Source: Brumimicrobium oceani (GTDB lineage: Bacteria; Bacteroidota; Bacteroidia; Flavobacteriales_D; Crocinitomicaceae). From it: a stretch of 64,000 nt of DNA. The notes below the pieces were generated by a model. The model did not search any database. It had not been told where the DNA came from and saw only the letters and a list, made by a program, of their open reading frames with translations. Of the stretch, positions 23,372-57,780 are shown in pieces. The stretch's first letter is position 1, and every line of letters begins with the position of its first letter. A program made the position numbers and the translations under genes. The stretch spans positions 62,001 to 126,000 of the forward strand of contig NZ_QFRJ01000008.1 in assembly GCF_003143775.1 (NCBI RefSeq). Direction: 5' to 3'.

Positions 23372-23750
23372 ATGACTGAAAATCAAATATCAAAAAAAAA
23401 CAATTGGATGTGCAATAGAAGTGCATAAAGCACTTGGGCCAGGCTTGTTAGATAGTGCTTATCAAGAATGTTTATTTTATAAGCTTGACGTGGAAGGTTT
23501 AAATATCGTTAAGGAGAAGCCAATGCCGTTGATTTATGAAGGTGTAAAACTTGATTGCGGTTACAGAATGGATTTGGTTGTTGAAAATAAAGTCGTAATT
23601 GAAATAAAAAGCGTTGAGGCATTAAACGATGTGCATTTAGCACAAACATTGACCTATTTAAAATCTGGGGAATTTAAACTGGGTTTACTAATCAATTTTA
23701 ATGTTGCGCTTTTAAAACATGGTTTAAAAAGTGTTGTGAATGGATTGTGA
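23372..23750 (+). pseudogene. GxxExxY family protein, frameshifted in an A9 run
   Basis: The intact frame from 23421 gives VHKALGPGLLDSAYQECLFY, YRMDLVVENKVVIEIKSVE and HLAQTLTYLKSGEFKLGLLI. This matches the GxxExxY family, which has a PD-(D/E)xK nuclease-like fold (D...E-x-K visible as DLVV...EIK). The family's usual start lies upstream: ATG 23372 gives MTENQISKK, and TIGCAIEVHKALG follows only if one A is removed from the nine-A run 23392-23400. The gene is therefore frameshifted by one base, or read by slippage, or miscalled. The family often sits near repeats; its function is unproven. Confidence 0.75.
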
Positions 23751-23759
23751 TTTTAAGAT

Positions 23760-24107
23760 AAAATGCTTGTCGGGAACTTTACCAGCAGTTTAATAAATTA
23801 CAGTAGAAAACGGTTTTCTCTTAAAATTGACAAGATCCTTCCATTGTTGAAAATCATAATTTTCAACAATGATCAGGATGACAGTTTTGGGGATTGGTGG
23901 GGCAAAGTAGAGGAAAAAACAAAAGCGCTATGGCGCTTTTGTTTTTTCCTCTACTTTGAGATATGCCCCTAGCCTAATGTCATCCTGAAGAAAATTTATT
24001 TTTCAATTTGTTGAAAATAGAAATTTGCGAAGGATCTTGTCGGTTCACCGCTTAATCACATAATTGATTAGATGTATTTACTGGTAAAGTATCGGATAGG
24101 CATTTAA
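23760..24107. mobile_element. Nested palindromic MITE-like element, copy 1 (complete)
   Basis: A 348-bp element. The ends are imperfect inverted repeats of about 25 bp (AAATGCTTGTCGGGAACTTT inward from 23761; the right end reads AAATGCCTATCCGATACTTT on the other strand), both continuing ACCAG. Nested inside are GACAAGATCCTTC with its exact inverse GAAGGATCTTGTC, then TCAGGATGACA with TGTCATCCTGA, and at the centre a perfect 25-bp stem (23904-23928 with 23933-23957, loop TATG). It carries no credible gene. Copies lie at 42184 and 29124. It resembles a non-autonomous transposable or foldback element; no transposase is in the window. Confidence 0.75.
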
Positions 24108-24192
24108 GTTAATACAGCACAAACTCATACTTCTTTTTTTTCTTCTGTGCGACCTATGCGTAAACCTCCGCGCCTCAGCGGTAAAATTCCCA

Positions 24193-24227
24193 GCAAAAAA
24201 AAGCTGCTCCAAAAATTGGAACAGCTT
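24193..24227 (-). terminator. Rho-independent terminator of rimP-nusA-infB
   Basis: On the minus strand AAGCTGTTCCAA and TTGGAGCAGCTT form a stem (24201-24226) followed by eight Ts (24194-24201). It lies about 25 bases after the infB stop, so it ends the operon. Confidence 0.85.
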
Positions 24228-24249
24228 GTAATATTTTGAGCTTGAACTC

Positions 24250-27162
24250 TTATTTTAATTTTCTTGCAACCTCTTTTTCTTCGTAAGCTTCAATGATATC
24301 GCCTACTTTAATGTCGTTGAACTTGTCAATGTTCAGTCCACATTCGTAGTTGTTTTTCACTTCTTTTACGTCGTCTTTGAATCGTTTCAATGAACCTAGT
24401 TTTCCTTCGTGAACTACAATTCCGTCTCTAATTAAACGGATGTTAGAGCTACGTTGGATATAACCAGAAGTTACATAACAACCTGCGATTGTACCTACTT
24501 TCGTAATATCGAATGTTTCTCTTACTTCGGCAGTACCCACGATTTCTTCCTTAATGTCTGGAGATAGCATCCCTTCCATTGCAGATTTCAATTCGTCGAT
24601 TGCTTTGTAGATTACAGAGTACAATCTGATGTCGATTTGTTCATCATCTGCCAATTTCTTAGCGGTAACGGTTGGCCTAACTTGGAAACCAATGATAATC
24701 GCATCAGAAGCAGAGGCTAAATTCACATCGGCTTCGGTAATTGCACCTACAGCTTTGTGAACAATATTCACTTGAATTTCTTCAGTTGACAATTTCAACA
24801 ATGAATCAGATAAGGCCTCAATAGAACCATCCACATCACCTTTCACAATAACATTTAATTCCTTAAAATCTCCAATCGCTAAACGACGACCAATTTCATC
24901 CAGGGTAATGTGTTTTTGTGTACGAAGACCTTGTTCTCTATATAATTGCTCTCTTCTTGTTGCAATATTTCGTGCTTCACGTTCATCATTCATAATGTAG
25001 AACTTGTCTCCCGCACTTGGTGCACCATTAATACCTAAAATAGATATAGGTGTAGACGGAGGAGCAACATCAAGGTTTTTACCTTTTTCATTCAACATTG
25101 CACGAACTCTTCCTGTGTGTTTACCGGCTAAGATAATGTCTCCAATCCTCAATGTACCTGCTTCTACAAGCATGTTAGTTACATAACCTTTTCCTTTATC
25201 AAGAGAAGATTCTAGTACAGTTCCCACTGCATTTTTGTTCGGATTAGCTTTTAATTCAAGTAAATCTGCTTCTAAGATTACTTTTTCAAGTAATTCATCT
25301 ATGTTCTTACCATGTTTGGCAGAGATTTCTTGACATTGATATTTTCCACCCCATTCTTCAACAAGAATGTTCATTGTAGAAAGTTGTTCTTTAATTTTAT
25401 CTGGATTTGCTCCTGGCTTATCGATCTTATTGATTGCGAATACCATAGGAACTTCCGCTGCTTGGGCGTGAGAAATCGCCTCTTTTGTTTGTGGCATCAC
25501 ATCATCATCAGCTGCTACAATAATAATGGCAACGTCTGTAACTTGCGCACCACGTGCTCTCATCGCAGTAAAGGCTTCGTGACCTGGAGTATCAAGGAAA
25601 GTTAATTGTTTTCCATCTAGTTTTACAGAGTATGCACCAATGTGCTGTGTAATTCCTCCTGCCTCACCGTCGGCAATTTTAGCTTTACGAATGTAATCCA
25701 GTAAAGAAGTTTTACCGTGGTCAACGTGACCCATCACCGTAATAATTGGTGGACGATCTACTAAATCTTCTGGACTATCTTCTTCAACTTTAATTGCATC
25801 TTGAACGTCAGCAGAAACGAATTCTGCCTCAAATCCAAATTCTTCAGCTACAATTTGTATTGTTTCCGCATCCAAACGTTGATTGATAGAAGCAAAAATA
25901 CCTAAGGACATACATGCTGAAATTACTTCAGTAGGTCCAACATTCATCATTGAAGCTAATTCTGAAACTGAAACGAATTCAGTAAGCTTTAATATTGATT
26001 GTTCTTTTTCTTCTTGTTCTAATTCTTTTTCACGCTTTTCTGCATAAGAATCTCTCTTCGCTCGTCTGTTTTTTGCTCCTTTGGATTTCCCTCCTCCAGA
26101 TAAACGTGCTAAAGTATCCTTGATTTCTTTTTCAATATCTTTTGCTGTAACCTCTTTTCTTGGTTCAGGTTTTTTCTTCCCTCGACCTTTGGCACGCACC
26201 ACATCTGTTCTTGGTCCTTTGGTAGCAGGAGCGTTTCCGCCTGATTTCTTAGGATCAACTTTTTTGATGCGTTTACGTTTTCTTTTGTTGTCGTGCTCTT
26301 TTTTCTTAGGCTCTTTCTTTTCTGGTAAAACAATTTTACCAACTACAGTAGGGCCTGCAAGTTTTTTTCTAGATACAGAAATCAGCTCAACTTTCTGTTC
26401 CTCTTTTTTAGGAGCAGGTGTTTCTGCTACTGGCTTCGTTTCTTCTTTCTTTTCAGGAGCTGGAGCTGGTGTAGGTTTTGGTGCGTGCTTCTTTACATTT
26501 TCATGTTTCTTAGCAGCTGGTTTCTCCTCTTTTTTCTTCTCCTTCTTCTTTTTGTCAGGACGTGTTCGTGTATCAATATTCGAAAGATCGATTTTTCCGA
26601 TAACATTCAGTCCACCGCTTTTCTCGTCTTTCGACTTAGGCTCTTCCTTGATTAATTTCGGAGCTTTATCCTCTTTTTCAACAGGTTTCTCAATCTCTTT
26701 TTCAACTTTAGGGGACTCGACTTTTTCCTCGGATTTCTCCACTTTCACCTCTTCAGGTACAACTTCTTGAGCCGGTTCTTCTTTCTTCTCTTCTTTCACC
26801 TCCACTTTTGGAGTTTCAGCTACCTCAGGTTTTTTCGCAGGTTCTTCTGGAGGAGCAGTTTCCTTCACAGGAACAACGATGTCTTCTTCATCATCTTCTT
26901 CCTTGGAAATTTCTTCCTCTTTAGTTTTCAGAGAAACAGTTTTTCTCTTCTCGCGTTTTACCGCTTTTTTCTCCGCTTCTTCCTTCAGCGTTTGATCATC
27001 AGCAAATTTTACACTCAAGATTTCGTAGTGTTCAGGGTCTAACTTTGTGTTAGGACTTGAGTCTATCTCAATCTCTTTTGTTTTCAAGAACTCTACTAAC
27101 GTGGCAATACCTACGTTTAATTCTCGTGCAACTTTGCTTAATCTTTTTACTTTACCGGCCAT
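24250..27162 (-). CDS. infB: Translation initiation factor IF-2
   Basis: A 970-aa GTPase that delivers initiator tRNA to the ribosome. The N-terminus ([20 protein letters not shown]) is the usual IF2-N fold, followed by about 300 residues of Lys/Glu/Pro-rich low-complexity linker. The G domain has [14 protein letters not shown] near residue 476, [15 protein letters not shown] and the [10 protein letters not shown] motif. Domains II-IV and the C-terminal tRNA-binding domain follow. The length is typical for Bacteroidota. It is the last gene of rimP-nusA-infB, 67 bases after nusA. Confidence 0.98.
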
Positions 27163-28984: not shown

Positions 28985-29123
28985 GTTCTATTAAATTTCT
29001 ATATAAAACAGTGCAAATGTAATTAAAATATTCTGAAAAACAATATTATTTTTTTATTGGGTTAGATGTCAGTAGGATAAGCTTCAAGTAGACGTCTTAA
29101 TTTGCCTCTCTTTTATTAAAATT

Positions 29124-29330
29124 AATGCCTATCCGATACTTTACCATTAAATATATCTAACCCAACCATAATGTGATTCAGCGGTAAACTAACAAGATCC
29201 TTCGCAAATTTCTATTTCCAACCAGTTGAAAATCAATGTTTTCAACTCTGTAATGATCTGACCTGGTTAAAGAGAGTACTTTTTATTGTAGTATATTAAA
29301 CAACTGGTAAAGTTCCCGATAAGCATTTTA
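29124..29330. mobile_element. Nested palindromic element, copy 3 (internally deleted, inverted)
   Basis: About 207 bp with the same ends as copies 1 and 2 in reverse orientation: ATGCCTATCCGATACTTTACC at the left and GGTAAAGTTCCCGATAAGCAT at the right. The outer shell is present (CGGTAAAC, AAGATCCTTCGCAAATTTCT), but the central TCAGGATGACA arms and the long hairpin are missing. It ends 3 bases from the stop codon of the M48 gene. The rest of the 28985-29333 gap is plain AT-rich sequence. Confidence 0.7.
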
Positions 29331-29333
29331 AGA

Positions 29334-31448
29334 TTAATCAAAATAAGAGAAAACTAAATGAGCTAAGCCCTCTACAGATAATTTACCCAGTTTATGTCTG
29401 GAATCATAGGCGCGCGAACTAAAGATTTCTCCCGTTGAAATATGGATATATCTTGCTGAACCAGTTACGGCTTTATCGGTGGATTTGTTGTAGTAATAAT
29501 TCCCATAAATTATCATTAGGTAGGGATCGTTGTAGGTGTTCAGTAATTCCTTCATTTGCTCGTAATCTACCCACAGGGTTTTTAAGTCTTTATGGTGATT
29601 ATTAATGCTTTGAATTAGAAATGAATTTATTAGTGCCGATTCATTATATTTTTCTGTAGAAAAGTCCTCGCTGATTGCAATTCCTGTGTTTTTGAGTCTT
29701 CCCTTTGGTGCATGCTTATTTATTCCTTCACCTAAATAGTCAGTAAATTGAAGAGTGGCTTCTAGGTCAAATTTTTCTTTGTATTCTGCTGTTAGGACTG
29801 GGGCTAAAAGAATAATGTCGCTTTGCCTTACGTTTTCGATGGATTCTAAGGAGGATTCGTTATTGTATCGGACTACTTTTCTCTTGCTGTGTTTTTGTTT
29901 TTCGTCATTATATACCTCATGAAATTCACCGTTTTTCACTAAGTCATATAAGAGAAACTTTGCATAGTTTTCTTGAGTGAGTTCTGATTTGGAGCTCCCT
30001 ACACTTTGTTGCTCACGCATTCTTCTTATTCTGTCATATTTCGTTTCGGTCGTTTTCTCTTCATTTTCTGTTTTCGTTGAGCTTGAGTCGCTCTGTTGAT
30101 TTATTTGTTCTAGCGCATCATAGAAACTGATGTTTTCTAATTCGTCAATTCTGAAATTTCGAGAGCGGGCTAAAGTGGAAATGGTTTCCGTTCTTATCTC
30201 TTCAAGTCTTTTAGAGTTGGGATATTGTTTATAAATGTCTTCAATTTGTCTTAAACTTAATAGTGTCAAATCATCTTGACTTATGTTTTTGAAAAATCCG
30301 TACAATAGGGAAATGGAACCTTCTTTATTTTCATAATCTTGTGTAATTCTGTTCAATTTTCGGCTTACAGAAATCTGGTTAAGGGAAGCCCAAGCTAGGG
30401 CTTTACTCATCTGTAGATATTTATTGCCGGGAAATTGTTTTTCTAAAATGTAAATTTCATAAAGTGCTTTTATGAATTCTGACTTGAGTAAATTCTCGCG
30501 AACAGACTCAAATCTGGCGATGTTTTGGATGGTTTTAAACTCTTCATCGTTTATGAAGTTAATGTTGTTTTTCCAGTCTTTGTAATTTTTTATTTCCTTT
30601 TCAATGGCAGCTCTTCTTTTACGAATGTTGGGGTGAGTACTTTTTGAATCATCATAATCTTCAAATGCTAAAATTGGATTGGGATTTTCTGGAAACAAAG
30701 ACAGAGGAATGTAAATTTTAGGATTACCAAAAAAGGAGCTGTCTATGATTATTTCATCAAAAGGGAGGTAAGAATACATTAAGACATCAAAAACAGTATT
30801 TACTTCTTCGGCAGCGTATCCTGCGGCATGATAAAGTTTTAAAGCATCTTTATCTGCTTCAAATTCATGGTCTTTTGAAAGCGTTACAAGGTCCTCATAG
30901 CTACTTGTTGGATCTATTTCGCCTGCTTTGGACTGCGAATAAGATTTTTGAAGATGTTTTTTCTGATAATGTACAATTTCGTGAGACAATACATAAGCCA
31001 ATTGAGCCTCGTTTTCAATTTGAGAGAGCAGACCTGTGGTTATGAATATCACACCGGGATCTGTGCACAAGGCGTTAGTTATATTCGTTGTAATGACGTA
31101 GAACTGTAAATCACGTCTTAGTCGGGCTTCATTTTTTAGTAAGTTAGCGGCTACCTTTTCAACGTATTTTGTCATTGGGTCGCCATACAAGACCAATCCT
31201 GTTTTTAGTAGATTGTTTAGCGCATAATTGGTGTACTTGGCATATTCTTCTTTACTTTCCTTATCAATGAATCTGGCGTTTTCAATTCCAAGGGCAACTT
31301 TATCACTAAAGGAAGTGGTGAAAAGAGTAGGTGCTTTTCCTTCTGCTTGGGTGGTGTTGAAATCTGTAAAAAAATCATCCTGCGCCAAAACAAGCGCAGG
31401 ATTGATAAAGAGTAAGGTGATGAATATTTTAAAATGTTGAAGTTTCAT
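29334..31448 (-). CDS. Secreted M48 family metalloprotease, paralog B
   Basis: A 704-aa exported protein with signal peptide FITLLFINPALVLAQ. The catalytic domain lies in the first 270 residues: NALCTDPGVIFITTGLLSQI, then HEIVH (the HExxH zinc motif, near residue 154) and HEFEADKDALKLYHAAGY with the third ligand Glu. The remaining 430 or so residues are helical, with TPR-like segments, and lack a recognised domain. It is a close paralog of the 35988-33865 product and the last gene of a four-gene minus-strand operon. It should act in the periplasm or at the outer membrane on envelope proteins, as BepA-like M48 proteases do; substrates are unknown. Confidence 0.86.
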   Translation of the reverse strand: MKLQHFKIFITLLFINPALVLAQDDFFTDFNTTQAEGKAPTLFTTSFSDKVALGIENARFIDKESKEEYAKYTNYALNNLLKTGLVLYGDPMTKYVEKVAANLLKNEARLRRDLQFYVITTNITNALCTDPGVIFITTGLLSQIENEAQLAYVLSHEIVHYQKKHLQKSYSQSKAGEIDPTSSYEDLVTLSKDHEFEADKDALKLYHAAGYAAEEVNTVFDVLMYSYLPFDEIIIDSSFFGNPKIYIPLSLFPENPNPILAFEDYDDSKSTHPNIRKRRAAIEKEIKNYKDWKNNINFINDEEFKTIQNIARFESVRENLLKSEFIKALYEIYILEKQFPGNKYLQMSKALAWASLNQISVSRKLNRITQDYENKEGSISLLYGFFKNISQDDLTLLSLRQIEDIYKQYPNSKRLEEIRTETISTLARSRNFRIDELENISFYDALEQINQQSDSSSTKTENEEKTTETKYDRIRRMREQQSVGSSKSELTQENYAKFLLYDLVKNGEFHEVYNDEKQKHSKRKVVRYNNESSLESIENVRQSDIILLAPVLTAEYKEKFDLEATLQFTDYLGEGINKHAPKGRLKNTGIAISEDFSTEKYNESALINSFLIQSINNHHKDLKTLWVDYEQMKELLNTYNDPYLMIIYGNYYYNKSTDKAVTGSARYIHISTGEIFSSRAYDSRHKLGKLSVEGLAHLVFSYFD

Positions 31449-41986: not shown

Positions 41987-42183
41987 TTTTTTTTCGATTT
42001 TACAATTATTAAAATAATTTATCCTCAATTAGTTTCTGATTATCAGTGGTTAGGGTTCTCATACCTTTCTTTTTGATCAGTAGAATATTGAGCTACTATT
42101 TTCTACTGTAGTGTTTAGTTGATGATAAGCAACCACAAAAAGATAGGATTTGTTATAATAGGAAACCAATCCTAATAAAATTA

Positions 42184-42533
42184 AGATGCTTACAGGGAAA
42201 TTTACCAGCTGTTTAATGTGCTAAAATAAAAAGTAATCTCTTTAACTTGGTCAAATCCTTCCATAGTTGAAAATATTAATTTTCAACTATGATCAGGATG
42301 ACAGTTGTGGATGTTGGGAGGCAAGCGAGAGGGGAAAAGCAAAAGCGTTAGAGCACTTTTGCTTTTCCCCTCTCGCATGAAGTATGACCCTAGCCTTATG
42401 TCATCCTGAAGTGATTTTCTTTTTTCAACTGGTTGGAAATAGAAACTTGCGAAGGATCATGTCAGTTAATTGACTATTCACATTATTGATGGATTAGATA
42501 TATTTACTGGTAAAGTAAAATACAGGTATCAAA
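42184..42533. mobile_element. Nested palindromic MITE-like element, copy 2 (complete)
   Basis: About 350 bp, in the same orientation as copy 1. The left end reads ATGCTTACAGGGAAATTTACC and the right TTTACTGGTAAAGTAAAATA. Inside are ATCCTTCCATAGTTGAAAAT, GATCAGGATGACAG with TGTCATCCTGAAG, and a central 23-bp stem (42325-42347 with 42354-42376) with one mismatch. AAAATTAA stands at both 42177-42184 and 42531-42538 and may be a target-site duplication, though such AT-rich words arise by chance. Confidence 0.75.
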
Positions 42534-42563
42534 ATTAAAGGAAGACCTATTTCGCATTACAGC

Positions 42564-45993: not shown

Positions 45994-45999
45994 AAAAAA

Positions 46000-46082
46000 C
46001 CGTGAAAATCCGCGTTGCTTCTTGAAGCATCCGCGTCAGCGCTCTGTTGAGCAACGTCGAAACACGCGTGCCATTACAGCGC
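46000..46082 (-). repeat. Dispersed intergenic repeat, copy 2
   Basis: On the minus strand this begins GCGCTGTAATGGCACGCG and ends AAGCAACGCGGATTTTCACG, matching the copy at 817-872 with an additional internal segment of about 25 bases (GACGTTGCTCAACAGAGCGC). The core GACGCGGATGCTTCAAGAAG includes a short inverted repeat. It separates two convergent genes and could terminate both. Confidence 0.6.
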
Positions 46083-52470: not shown

Positions 52471-55400
52471 ATGAAAAGGACATTATTTACACTCTTATTT
52501 TTACTTGCTCTCTACTCGAATGCGCAAGTAACTGCATCATTTTCAGCATTGCCTAGCGGTGGAACTTCTATTCCACATACAGTGTTTTTTACTGACCAAT
52601 CGACATTTCCAGACACTTGGTTGTGGAACTTTGGTGATGGAAGTACATCTACAGCTCAAAACCCAATCCACACATATACCAGTTATGGTGAATATGCCGT
52701 CAGTCTTTCCATTCAAGATACGATGACAGGAGCTTCTGATGTTGAGAATAAAATTGCTTATATAAAAATATCAGCCCCAGAAGCAGACATTGGAGGACCA
52801 ACATTTGGATATTTTGGTTGTGGGCCTCTAACAGTCAATTTTCTTGATGCATCTGTAGCGAACGGTTCACCTATTGTGGGTTGGTTATGGGATTTCGGAG
52901 ATGGTACTACGTCAACAAATCAAAATCCTTCACATACTTACAATACTTCTGGGGTTTATACTGTTTCCTTAACCATTACAGATAGTTTCGGTAATACCGA
53001 CTCGGAGTTATTTACGAATATGGTACAAACTATTGGACCTAATTCAAATTTTCAAGTCAGTAAGAGGCTTATACAGCCCAATACGAGTGTTACTTTTACA
53101 GATTTAACCACTTTCGGATCTCCAGCTGTTGGTTGGAGCTGGAATTTTGGAGATGGTAGTCCTAATTCCAATTTGCAAAACCCATCTCATACATATACTA
53201 CTTCTGGTGATTATACAGTTAGCTTAACAGTTACTGATCTTGATGGTTGCTCCAGAACACTTACAAGAACAGCGTATATTAAGGTTCTAGATTGCCCAAT
53301 AAATGTAACAGAAAATAATGACACTGGTGAATGCGAAGCAAGTGTAGTACTTCCAGATTTTCAAGGCATAACTAATGGAAATGCTGTAAATTTAGATGGG
53401 GTAAATGATTATATTAATGCGCCTCTTCCTGCTATATTCAATAATATTGGGACAAATGATTTCACTATTGAAATGTGGGTGAATAGAGCAGCTGGTTCTT
53501 CTACAAGGAGAATGTTTTTTGCACAATTAGATTTGAATAATTTTACAAGTATAATGTTATCCTCGTCAGGTGAACTTTTTGTATATGTAATAGATAACGG
53601 CAATGTCTATAGCGTAAATTCTCAAAATAATATCCCGATAAATCAATGGACACATTTGGCTTTTAGGTGGAACGCAAGTTTAAATAAAATTACTGTTCTA
53701 ATCAATGGTATTGAATTATTAAGTACGATTTCTGGAGGAACAAGTAGTTTTGGAAATGATAATACTATGACTATTGGTGCTAAAACGGATGGTTCACAGG
53801 TTTTTAAGGGTGCAATAGATGAGGTGCGTATCTGGAATGAAGAAAGAAGTACGGCGGCTATTGTCGCTTCTATGAATTCATGCGTTTCTGAAACAGTTCC
53901 AAATTTGGTTGCGTATTATCGTTTGGATGAAATTCCTGGAAGCACAACAGTAAATGATGAAACAGGAAACGGTTATTCAGGTGATTTAATGAATAGTAAT
54001 ACAAGTACTGCTTGGAATGAAGGAACTATTTCTTGTGATGGATATGCAACTAACGATTTCACAAATACAAATAATGCTTCTGGAGTTTATCCAATCGGAA
54101 ATACTACAGTAACATGGACAGCAACTAATGCTTTAGGAGATTCAGTTACGTGTACACAAGATGTAACAGTGGTAGATAATGAGAATCCAACCATTACATG
54201 TCCTGCTGACATTACTATCAATACAGATGCAGGATTATGTACTTCTACATCTCCAATTGGAACAGCAACTGGAACAGATAATTGCGCAACGCCTACAATT
54301 ACAAACAATGCGCCTGCGAGTTTCCCTATTGGAAACACAACTGTCACTTGGACTTCAACTGATGCAGCGGGAAACTTTGTAACGTGTGATCAAATTGTAA
54401 CAGTGGTAGATAATGAAAACCCAACAATTACGTGTCCCGCAGATATTACAATAAATACAGATGCAGGATTATGTACTTCATCGTCTCCAATCGGCACAGC
54501 AACAGGAACGGATAATTGCGCAACACCTACAATTACCAATAATGCACCTGCAAGTTTCCCTATTGGTAACACAACTGTCACTTGGACTTCAACAGATGCA
54601 GCTGGTAACTTTGTAATCTGTGATCAAATCGTAACGGTGGAAGATAATGAAAACCCAACGATTACGTGTCCTGCAGATCTTACCATTAATACAGACGCTG
54701 GTTTATGTACTTCAACTTCTCCAATTGGAACAGCAACAGGAACGGATAATTGCGCAACACCTACAATTACCAATAATGCACCTGCGAGTTTCCCTATTGG
54801 AAACACAACCGTCACTTGGACTTCAACAGATGCATCGGGGAACTTTGTAACCTGTGATCAAATCGTAATGGTGGTGGATAATGAAAATCCAACGATTAGT
54901 TGTCCTGCAGATATTACAATAAATACAGATGCTGGTCTATGTACTTCTACATCTCCAATTGGCACAGCAACAGGAATGGATAATTGCGCAACACCTACAA
55001 TTACCAATAATGCACCTGCAAGTTTCCCTATTGGTAACACAACTGTCACTTGGACTTCAACAGATGCAGCTGGTAACTTTGTAATCTGTGATCAAATCGT
55101 AACGGTGGAAGATAATGAAAACCCAACGATTACGTGTCCTTCAGATATTACTATCAATACAGATACGGGTTTATGTACTTCTACAACTTCTATCGGCACA
55201 GCAACAGGAACAGACAATTGCGGAACGCCTACAATTACCAACAATGCGCCTGTAAGTTTCCCAATCGGAAACACGACGGTGACTTGGACTTCAACAGATG
55301 CAGCGGGTAACTTTGTAACGTGTGATCAAATTGTAACAGTGGTAGATAATGAGAATCCAACAATCAGCTGCCCTGCTGACATCACTATTAACACAGATGC

Positions 55401-57780
55401 TGGTTTATGTACTTCTACATCTCCAATTGGGACAGCAACAGGAACGGATAATTGCGCAACACCTACAATTACCAATAATGCACCTGCGAGTTTCCCTATT
55501 GGAAACACAACCGTCACTTGGACTTCAACAGATGCAGCGGGTAACTTTGTAACTTGTGATCAAATCGTAACAGTTGTAGATAATGAAAATCCAACGATTA
55601 CGTGTCCTTCAGATATTACTATCAATTCAGATGCAGGATTATGTACTTCTACATCTCCAATCGGCACAGCAACAGGAACCGATAATTGCGCAGCGCCTGC
55701 CATTACCAACAATGCGCCTGCAAGTTTTCCTATCGGAAATACAACTGTAACATGGACATCAACAGATGCTGCTGGTAACTTTGTAACGTGTGATCAAATC
55801 GTAACAGTTGTAGATAATGAAGATCCAACCATTACATGTCCTGCTAACATCACTATTAACACAGACGCTGGTTTATGTACTTCAACTTCTCCAATTGGAA
55901 CAGCAACAGGGACGGATAATTGCGCAACACCTACAATTACCAACAATGCACCTGCAAGTTTCCCTATTGGTAACACAACTGTAACTTGGACATCAACAGA
56001 CGCAGCGGGTAACTTTGTAACGTGTGATCAAATTGTAACAGTGGTAGATAATGAAAATCCAACCATTACATGTCCTGCTAACATCACTATTAACACAGAC
56101 GCTGGTTTATGTACTTCTACATCTCCAATTGGGACAGCAACAGGAACGGATAATTGCGCAACACCTACAATTACCAATAATGCACCTGCGAGTTTCCCTA
56201 TTGGAAACACAACCGTCACTTGGACATCAACAGATGCATCGGGTAACTTTGTAACGTGTGATCAAATCGTAACAGTTGTGGATAATGAAAATCCAACAAT
56301 TAGTTGTCCTTCAGATATTACTATCAATACAGACGCTGGTTTATGTACTTCAACTTCTTCAATCGGCACAGCAACAGGAACAGATAATTGCGCAACACCT
56401 ACAATTACCAACAATGCACCTGCAAGTTTCCCTATTGGTAACACAACTGTAACTTGGACATCAACAGACGCAGCGGGTAACTTTGTAACGTGTGATCAAA
56501 TTGTAACAGTGGTAGATAATGAAAATCCAACCATTACATGTCCTGCTAACATCACTATTAACACAGACGCTGGTTTATGTACTTCTACATCTCCAATTGG
56601 GACAGCAACAGGAACGGATAATTGCGCAACACCTACAATTACCAATAATGCACCTGCGAGTTTCCCTATTGGAAACACAACCGTCACTTGGACATCAACA
56701 GATGCATCGGGTAACTTTGTAACGTGTGATCAAATCGTAACAGTTGTGGATAATGAAAATCCAACAATTAGTTGTCCTTCAGATATTACTATCAATACAG
56801 ACGCTGGTTTATGTACTTCAACTTCTTCAATCGGCACAGCAACAGGAACAGATAATTGCGCAGCCCCTACAATTACCAACAATGCTCCTGCAAGTTTTCC
56901 TATTGGAAATACAACTGTAACATGGACATCAACAGATGGAGTTGGGAATTTTGTTACATGCACACAAGTAGTAACAGTTGTAGATAATGAAGATCCAACG
57001 ATTAGTTGTCCGGGAAACATCATCGCTTATGCGGATGACAATTGCGATTTCATATTGGCAGATTACACGGCACTAGCTACTTCTAGCGATAATTGCACCT
57101 CCTTACCAATAATCACACAAAGTCCAATTGCAGGAAGTGTTTTGAATGGAGCAGGAATTCATGTTATCACATTAACTGCTACGGATGATTATGGAAATAC
57201 TAGCGATTGTACATTTGAAGTAAATCTTATCGATACTATTTCTCCAATTGTAAACTGTCTTTCAAATCAAACGGAAATTTTAGATGAATTCTGTCAGTTT
57301 ATTATGCCCGATTACAGTTTAATGACTGATTTATCAGATAATTGTTCAGATGAAATTTACGTTACCCAATTCCCAGAAGCAGGAACTGTTTACGATGGAG
57401 TTCAAAACTTACCTATCACTTTAACATTTGAGGATATTTCAGGAAATATCACAACATGCAATTTCGAAATAGAAGTAATTACAGATGGGATAAATCCTGG
57501 GTGTTTAGAGGATATATTTATTACAACTCTATTGACTCCAAATGGAGACGGAAGAAATGACACATGGATTGTTCGAGAATTGGATTTCATAAAAGATTGT
57601 ACAGTCCAGATTTTTAACAGATGGGGTCAAAAAGTATATGAAACAGTTAATTATCAGAATGATTGGGGCGGTGAATATAAAGGTGAACAGTTGCCAGATG
57701 GGGCATATGTTTATGTGATTATCTGTAATGACGAAATCAAATATTCAGGTCCATTAACGATAATGAGTTCATCAAATTAA
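52471..57780 (+). CDS. Giant PKD/LamG/HYR repeat adhesin with type B gliding-type C-terminal domain
   Basis: A 1769-aa surface protein with signal peptide LFTLLFLLALYSNAQ. Three PKD domains occupy about residues 25-280 (LWNFGDGSTSTAQNPIHTY, WLWDFGDGTTSTNQNPSHTY, WSWNFGDGSPNSNLQNPSHT). A LamG/laminin-like domain follows at about 300-490 (VNLDGVNDYINAPLPAIFNN, FKGAIDEVRIWNEERST). From about 570 come twelve nearly identical 78-residue HYR repeats (NPTITCPADITINTDAGLC and a second Cys), then two divergent ones. The last 100 residues form the type B sorting domain (LLTPNGDGRNDTW, FNRWGQKVYE, LPDGAYVYVI). It should be exported by T9SS and held at the cell surface with the PorP-like protein encoded 2 bases downstream. 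Confidence 0.93.
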   Translation: MKRTLFTLLFLLALYSNAQVTASFSALPSGGTSIPHTVFFTDQSTFPDTWLWNFGDGSTSTAQNPIHTYTSYGEYAVSLSIQDTMTGASDVENKIAYIKISAPEADIGGPTFGYFGCGPLTVNFLDASVANGSPIVGWLWDFGDGTTSTNQNPSHTYNTSGVYTVSLTITDSFGNTDSELFTNMVQTIGPNSNFQVSKRLIQPNTSVTFTDLTTFGSPAVGWSWNFGDGSPNSNLQNPSHTYTTSGDYTVSLTVTDLDGCSRTLTRTAYIKVLDCPINVTENNDTGECEASVVLPDFQGITNGNAVNLDGVNDYINAPLPAIFNNIGTNDFTIEMWVNRAAGSSTRRMFFAQLDLNNFTSIMLSSSGELFVYVIDNGNVYSVNSQNNIPINQWTHLAFRWNASLNKITVLINGIELLSTISGGTSSFGNDNTMTIGAKTDGSQVFKGAIDEVRIWNEERSTAAIVASMNSCVSETVPNLVAYYRLDEIPGSTTVNDETGNGYSGDLMNSNTSTAWNEGTISCDGYATNDFTNTNNASGVYPIGNTTVTWTATNALGDSVTCTQDVTVVDNENPTITCPADITINTDAGLCTSTSPIGTATGTDNCATPTITNNAPASFPIGNTTVTWTSTDAAGNFVTCDQIVTVVDNENPTITCPADITINTDAGLCTSSSPIGTATGTDNCATPTITNNAPASFPIGNTTVTWTSTDAAGNFVICDQIVTVEDNENPTITCPADLTINTDAGLCTSTSPIGTATGTDNCATPTITNNAPASFPIGNTTVTWTSTDASGNFVTCDQIVMVVDNENPTISCPADITINTDAGLCTSTSPIGTATGMDNCATPTITNNAPASFPIGNTTVTWTSTDAAGNFVICDQIVTVEDNENPTITCPSDITINTDTGLCTSTTSIGTATGTDNCGTPTITNNAPVSFPIGNTTVTWTSTDAAGNFVTCDQIVTVVDNENPTISCPADITINTDAGLCTSTSPIGTATGTDNCATPTITNNAPASFPIGNTTVTWTSTDAAGNFVTCDQIVTVVDNENPTITCPSDITINSDAGLCTSTSPIGTATGTDNCAAPAITNNAPASFPIGNTTVTWTSTDAAGNFVTCDQIVTVVDNEDPTITCPANITINTDAGLCTSTSPIGTATGTDNCATPTITNNAPASFPIGNTTVTWTSTDAAGNFVTCDQIVTVVDNENPTITCPANITINTDAGLCTSTSPIGTATGTDNCATPTITNNAPASFPIGNTTVTWTSTDASGNFVTCDQIVTVVDNENPTISCPSDITINTDAGLCTSTSSIGTATGTDNCATPTITNNAPASFPIGNTTVTWTSTDAAGNFVTCDQIVTVVDNENPTITCPANITINTDAGLCTSTSPIGTATGTDNCATPTITNNAPASFPIGNTTVTWTSTDASGNFVTCDQIVTVVDNENPTISCPSDITINTDAGLCTSTSSIGTATGTDNCAAPTITNNAPASFPIGNTTVTWTSTDGVGNFVTCTQVVTVVDNEDPTISCPGNIIAYADDNCDFILADYTALATSSDNCTSLPIITQSPIAGSVLNGAGIHVITLTATDDYGNTSDCTFEVNLIDTISPIVNCLSNQTEILDEFCQFIMPDYSLMTDLSDNCSDEIYVTQFPEAGTVYDGVQNLPITLTFEDISGNITTCNFEIEVITDGINPGCLEDIFITTLLTPNGDGRNDTWIVRELDFIKDCTVQIFNRWGQKVYETVNYQNDWGGEYKGEQLPDGAYVYVIICNDEIKYSGPLTIMSSSN
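54177..56984 (+). repeat. Twelve tandem 234-bp coding repeats (HYR)
   Basis: The unit of 234 bp (78 codons) recurs twelve times with only a few residue changes, for example ADI/SDI/ANI and SPIG/SSIG. Two adjacent double units (beginning near 55915 and 56383) are identical over about 480 bp at an offset of 468 bp, which indicates recent tandem duplication or gene conversion. Confidence 0.95.

Follow-up and report, generated by a model that had tools for sequence, protein, structure and literature searches.

The palindromic elements found in this stretch of Brumimicrobium DNA are best explained as a MITE family moved in trans by an IS1595 transposase, with correction between hairpin arms as an inferred addition; for this explanation as a whole we put the probability at about 0.93. 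The window (the whole stretch analysed, 64,000 nt, C34:62001-126000) belongs to a 3.85-Mb genome of Brumimicrobium (Flavobacteriales) in 35 contigs, and reading the elements as a MITE accounts for at least 58 palindromic places in that genome and links these places to a named family of transposases. The original prediction left two options, mobility or a cellular role as structured DNA or RNA: the mobile half is supported by the shared ends, the 8-bp duplications, the number of copies, one empty site and a transposase with matching ends in relatives, and the cellular-role half is not supported. As a mobile element the family is ordinary; the behaviour of its hairpins is the part that merits a specialist's attention.

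Three related palindromic copies had been proposed in the window, and all are present, with borders that we refined using the ends and the 8-bp target duplications. Copy 1 (23762..24104, + strand; 343 bp) is full length, and its terminal inverted repeats lie at 23762..23785 (left, + strand; resembling the ends of an IS1595 element at G009 C8:57451-58501) and 24081..24104 (right, + strand), flanked by the target duplications TAAGATAA (23754..23761) and TAAGTTAA (24105..24112), which match in seven of eight positions. Both inner repeat pairs named earlier are found in its sequence: AAGATCCTTC (23832..23841, + strand) with its partner GAAGGATCTT (24029-24038), and TCAGGATGACA (23873..23883, + strand) with TGTCATCCTGA (23978-23988). 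A left side hairpin with a loop of 4, recognised from sequence and fold, occupies 23841..23871 (+ strand), and the central hairpin (23903..23958, + strand) has two perfect 26-bp arms and the loop TATG. Copy 2 (42185..42530, + strand; 346 bp) is a member of a second subfamily, with identical target duplications (AAAATTAA/AAAATTAA, 42177..42184 and 42531-42538) and central hairpin arms that are three edits apart. Copy 3 (29124..29327, - strand; 204 bp) is oriented opposite to the other two, lacks the central part with its hairpin, and has CTTTACCAT instead of CTTTACCAG at one end; its target duplications TTAAAATT (29116..29123) and TTAAGATT (29328-29335) agree in seven of eight positions, the latter overlapping the stop codon of an M48-peptidase gene (29334-31448, - strand).

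The expectation that nearly the whole element folds on itself is borne out for positions 23755-24110 (356 nt): the predicted free energy is -91.5 kcal/mol as DNA (shuffled sequences -31.3, sd 3.63) and -147.3 kcal/mol as RNA (shuffled -75.05, sd 4.72), that is, 16.6 and 15.3 sd below the shuffles, and none of 100 shuffles was as low in either case. We found no ORF of at least 80 aa inside the three window copies, and the one IS1595-type transposase gene of the genome sits on a different contig, in agreement with the earlier statements that no gene is encoded and no transposase is nearby.

When copies 1 and 3 were used to search the complete genome at the DNA level, the family was found in at least 58 merged places (matches less than 600 bases apart were joined) on at least 16 contigs, so the possibility that only three copies exist can be dropped. 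The number 58 is a lower bound, as scoring covered 40 of 166 first-look candidates in one search and 40 of 127 in the other; at least two more copies (L122 and L126) were found via their ends alone, and the merged place C12:279245-279994 also contains what is left of another copy. Some of the copies share 97% identity. One end has 50 matches at three or fewer mismatches (vs none for the reversed pattern), and when up to seven mismatches out of 23 are allowed per end, both ends can be placed in 35 of the 58 places, a single end in 22 and neither in one. The layout is A-ATGCYTRTCGGGAACTTTACCAG ... CTGGTAAAGTATCGGATAGGCAT-T, with imperfect ends of 24 bp: the first base is A (before ATGC) in 33 of the 35 two-ended copies, and the last is T (after GCAT) in 32. 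The span between end motifs is 177-345 bp in 34 of these copies and 747 bp in one with an insert (L028, G000 C32:185433-186187), where the two halves are separated by about 400 bp of other DNA. Another place, L027 (G000 C12:158399-158750), is rearranged: right-half and left-half pieces are inverted relative to each other, with end-like sequence on both sides.

The 8-bp target duplication, with the consensus TAAAWTTA, is exact in 17 of the 35 two-ended copies and has at most one mismatch in 27 (ten copies have one mismatch); the remaining eight have two to six (two mismatches in one copy, three in two, four in one, five in two and six in two). When left and right flanks are compared at spacings from 6 to 12, spacing 10 alone stands out, with an agreement of 0.760 vs 0.500 in shuffles (sd 0.022; highest value in 1000 shuffles 0.571). 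In its eight inner columns, left and right are the same in 80-89% of copies; in the two outer columns this falls to 37% and 49%. The outer columns are thus not duplicated, and the duplication is 8 rather than 10 bp.

Comparison with five relatives gave one clean empty site. At the site of copy 3, the same gene pair stands in Brumimicrobium glaciale (G004) with no element between the genes, and the sequence there is AATCTAAA, in place of the AATCTTAA that is duplicated in the window; the other four relatives differ upstream. For the sites of copies 1 and 2, about 390 nt of each of the five relatives were aligned and show no element, but the intergenic parts of these sites align poorly, so that the clean empty site applies to one of three window sites and one of five relatives. 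The same element is carried by G005, where eight of 12 fetched places gave paired ends, with 0, 0, 1, 1, 1, 1, 5 and 5 differences between the 8-bp flanks (at most one in six of eight). In G003 paired ends were obtained in one of four fetched places, with five mismatches in the duplication.

A transposase with matching ends, which the original prediction had suggested looking for, is found in a relative. Two facing ends lie across 1051 bp in a congeneric genome (G009 C8:57451-58501), forming a 1.05-kb insertion sequence with an intact frame of 315-321 aa (depending on the start) that matches PF12762 (DDE_Tnp_IS1595; 9.9e-17) and the NCBIfam IS1595 model NF033547 (1.7e-48). Compared with the nearer of two MITE end patterns, its left end is off at two and its right end at three of 23 positions; its target duplication matches in six of eight. 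The frame has two visible CxxC pairs and no Pfam hit at 1e-3 for Zn_Tnp_IS1595, an N-terminal zinc-binding domain that is a feature of IS1595 and is absent in the IS1016 group. By eye, the MITE interior has no likeness to this insertion sequence beyond the ends. Since similar ends flank an IS1595 element, an IS1595 transposase is most likely what moves the MITE in trans, judging from the sequences. Members of IS1595 are usually flanked by 8-bp duplications (PMC8101967).

The host genome has a single IS1595 gene (C35:117792), whose element has an exact 8-bp duplication (AAACTTAA) and an end, ATGCTTCCCCGCAATGTTACCAC, laid out as in the MITE, but its two ends are off at seven and eight of 23 positions; we therefore rejected it as a close partner, and the host genome gave no insertion sequence whose ends match closely. 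Elsewhere, one MITE end is matched at three or fewer mismatches in seven of ten genomes of the genus, with none for the reversed pattern. A separate scan of named genomes gave three stretches with the end, in Brumimicrobium glaciale, B. aurantiacum and an uncultured Flavobacteriales bin; the window's own genome is possibly excluded from that scan. At two or fewer mismatches, the end is found in 11 of 240 genomes of the taxonomic family, seven in the genus and four outside it; the reversed control had one match (G158). Three of the four genomes outside the genus have IS1595-related frames beside an end-like stretch: in G105 the frame appears as two tblastn pieces between two ends, in G139 it is cut by the contig end, and in G017 it was found by a separate search at a further place (on C66), also cut by the contig end. 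No transposase frame was seen in the DNA fetched for the G164 place and for two other end places in G017.

Taken together, the proposed course of events is as follows. An IS1595 transposase would bind the MITE ends in trans and insert the element into intergenic sites resembling TAAAWTTA, often shortly after the stop codon of a gene. The source of the transposase may have been lost from this strain, may never have been there, or may be the one remaining divergent IS1595 copy. The interior would be dispensable for movement and would decay via internal deletion. The tight central hairpin is probably held near-perfect by correction between its arms at the DNA level, not by the transposase, and such correction could be template switching at the replication fork.

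In G001, G002, G003 and G004, ends of this kind enclose another interior, GCGGATGACACGGATG...AACGCGGATAATCACGG with variants; in the host genome that interior has both ends at L120, L123 and L124 and one recognised end at L119 and L121. The same ends thus surround unlike interiors, and they serve as a shell for at least two interior types. Pieces of the second interior also occur in the window (about 816-875, and 45995-46035), where the end search gave no match. At these two window positions lies a second dispersed repeat, GCGCTGTATTGGAACGCGGATGACACGGATGCAAGCAACGCGGAT with variants, that is without matched ends in the window and elsewhere forms the interior of elements with this kind of ends; repeats of this type are also located at L119-L121, L123, L124, L072-L074, L086 and L098.

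The copies are dispersed, mostly intergenic and nearer to gene 3' ends: according to a simple frame caller, the 35 two-ended copies have convergent neighbours in 12 cases, tandem in 17 and divergent in four, and one side was not called in two. For example, the neighbours of copy 1, a PDDEXK_3 frame and infB, both have their 3' ends towards it; copy 2 follows a TonB-dependent receptor gene, and copy 3 is situated between the M48-peptidase gene and rimP (infB and rimP are named after their IF-2 and RimP domains). This 3'-end bias may be a consequence of the TAA-containing target. Two other features of the window are repetitive. The sequence CTGTGCGACCTATGCGTAAACCTCCGCGCCTCAGCGG (about 24140-24186) presumably resembles dispersed repeats of other Bacteroidota, and a gene at 52471-57780 contains 13 tandem units of 234 nt (54061-57020) and encodes a 1769-aa product with 13 HYR-domain stretches, PKD domains and a type IX secretion signal domain.

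Central hairpins (26-28 bp) vary between copies and match between the arms within a copy. We saw 19 of them in the 58 places, many copies having lost theirs: 16 came from a symmetric hairpin finder (whose 22 hairpins included six others), and three with unequal tracts or a lost base were added (C12_480390, C12_279245 and C12_158399). Of 431 pairs in the 16 hairpins, 423 are Watson-Crick, four are G-T and four are mismatched, and 11 hairpins are wholly Watson-Crick, although these figures flatter the hairpins because the finder cuts each stem back to its best-scoring part and overlooks unequal arms. Among 14 aligned full-length copies, unequal ones included, there are ten distinct left arms and ten distinct right arms; the arm pairs are perfect in nine copies and one to three edits apart in five. 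The edit distance of an arm to its own partner is 0.64, compared with 2.30 after shuffling of right arms inside each of the two subfamilies (none of 5000 shuffles as low), a test that controls for the two subfamilies and retains finer relatedness inside them. In the same test, shuffles were as low as the observed value in 566 of 5000 cases for the outer ends (own 6.29 vs shuffled 6.53), in 869 for the left side hairpin, which varies little, in 1015 for the TCAGGATGACA pair and in all 5000 for the AAGATCCTTC pair, so that none of these has significant paired change. A-tracts with lengths of 6, 7 and 8 face T-tracts of matching length, and in two further copies the tracts are unequal (5 vs 7, and 7 vs 8). 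The sister copies C1_184598 and C1_546637 (support 0.85 when the tree leaves the hairpin out) are distinguished by a paired change, GAGAGAGG/CCTCTCTC vs GAGAGGGG/CCCCTCTC, and also by one change in a single arm.

The loops of the 19 hairpins (16 caught by pattern, with one unrelated match set aside, and three from the hairpin finder) are CAGA (3), TCTG (4), TAGA (3), TCTA (2), TAAA (2), TCTC (2), CAAA (2) and TATG (1). Two of these eight types are reverse complements of two others, which is expected in 0.25-0.6% of random draws; the two pairs look alike and may therefore stem from one event. In the left hairpin, TGRTCAGGAT is changed to TGGAAGGAT, completing a palindrome, in five of 37 pattern-caught hairpins (38 rows minus one false match), and these conversions occur in five different stem backgrounds and two species; the right hairpin has a comparable multi-base change in C1_546637, C12_327638 and C31_152534. 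The MITE hairpins change on both arms jointly, as though one arm were copied from the other during replication. Known products of template switching are arm homogenisation and spacer inversion, and spacers are shorter where switching occurs (PMC8604942), and the reverse-complement loops and converted arm segments are compatible with template switching during replication. We lean towards regarding the family as a natural record of hairpin evolution by this route, in which copies would independently rewrite their tight hairpins (paired substitutions, paired tract lengths, converted arms, inverted loops) while the long-range repeats drift, so that compensatory change would arise from mutation alone.

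The arms might instead match simply because the copies are young, perfect arms having been inherited from a few masters with no correction needed. Some arm types are common to the two subfamilies, several are shared by two or three related copies, some pairs of copies are 97% identical, and five of the 14 aligned copies have arm differences of one to three edits, all of which suits this explanation. But shuffling within subfamilies raises the edit distance well above the observed value, ten distinct left arms are found in only 14 copies, the outer ends of the very same copies remain mismatched, and tract lengths of 6, 7 and 8 are matched across the stem (two further copies being unequal). We consider youth an unlikely reason for the match, if one with a real claim to attention. 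It is less probable still that the element is a host-selected structured RNA or bidirectional terminator that was repeated by chance, with the paired hairpin changes reflecting selection on an RNA stem. The fold is very stable, the central stem has paired changes, the A-tract, GC-rich stem and T-tract resemble a two-way terminator by eye, and the copies lie closer to gene 3' ends with the neighbour orientations given above; however, mobility is shown by the ends, the target duplications and the transposase partner, the central hairpin is gone from many copies, G-U pairs are scarce (the four of 431), stem selection would not predict whole-loop inversions, and the 3'-end bias has a possible source in the target. 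Rfam gave no match at gathering score in the window; between 23700 and 24150 there were 20 sub-threshold matches, mostly to microRNA precursors and all below the cut-offs. The central hairpin was not called by a terminator scan of 23700-24300; this counts little, since the scan's rule requires T following the stem, and in this hairpin the T-tract is part of the stem.

In another reading, the inner GATCCTTC/GGATGACA hairpins would be repeats of the REP type, with a Y1 (RAYT) transposase to move them, and the outer ends would be incidental. These hairpins are palindromic, intergenic and paired in opposite orientation, and the motif recalls what we take to be REP-like repeats of other Bacteroidota. 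Against this, the element is bounded by two definite ends and flanked by an 8-bp duplication, and we know of no REPs with these features; nor was a MITE copy seen near the one Y1_Tnp gene found in the genome (no match of the two genome searches lies on its contig, C30). With the sole Y1_Tnp gene found in the genome lacking these repeats, we rejected this reading, which we regard as very improbable. The gene itself (L061, G000 C30:117312-117647) is a frame of 150 aa that stands alone and matches Y1_Tnp; it may be an IS200-type domain that was domesticated.

If the DNA-level correction of arms is true, the MITE family offers many parallel, mostly non-coding test cases. Template switching has been proposed for RNA stems, but its role in maintaining short stems is described as less clear and the evidence as circumstantial (PMC8794818), and the question that these cases could test, whether compensatory changes in short stems come about via template switching, is left open there. 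The MITE hairpins also call for caution: compensatory change is usually taken to prove an RNA function, and covariation in bacterial repeats should not be taken as evidence of one.

The original prediction knew of no described counterpart, which no longer holds: the element is a MITE, and an IS1595-type MITE with 8-bp repeats has been published (PMC3852290). For the family itself, no description was seen in the titles and abstract openings of the matches listed for IS1595 MITEs, Brumimicrobium insertion sequences, flavobacterial MITEs, template-switch palindromes and the inner motif. The published element, from Haloquadratum walsbyi (partner ISHwa6, IR 25, DR 8), is likewise assigned to IS1595 and has 8-bp repeats, but it is archaeal, 165 bp long and present in seven copies (PMC3852290). 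The IS1595 insertion sequences discussed above (in G009 and at host C35:117792) have a common end layout and 8-bp duplication with the MITE; they differ in their length of about 1.0 kb, their transposase gene and their unlike interior. MITEPye1 of Paracoccus yeei and QMITE2 of Coxiella are also short and gene-free, with terminal inverted and direct repeats and a strong predicted fold, but the IS partner of MITEPye1 is IS1182, and nested covarying hairpins go unmentioned for both in the available portions of these papers (PMC11578231, PMC10969869). The quasipalindromes in which template-switch mutations have been described are in yeast genes and RNA genes, whereas here the changes are inferred for a mobile element that is scattered through a bacterial genome and has no dated ancestors; the mutations are nevertheless alike in arm homogenisation, multi-base conversion, spacer inversion and preference for short spacers (PMC8604942, PMC8794818).
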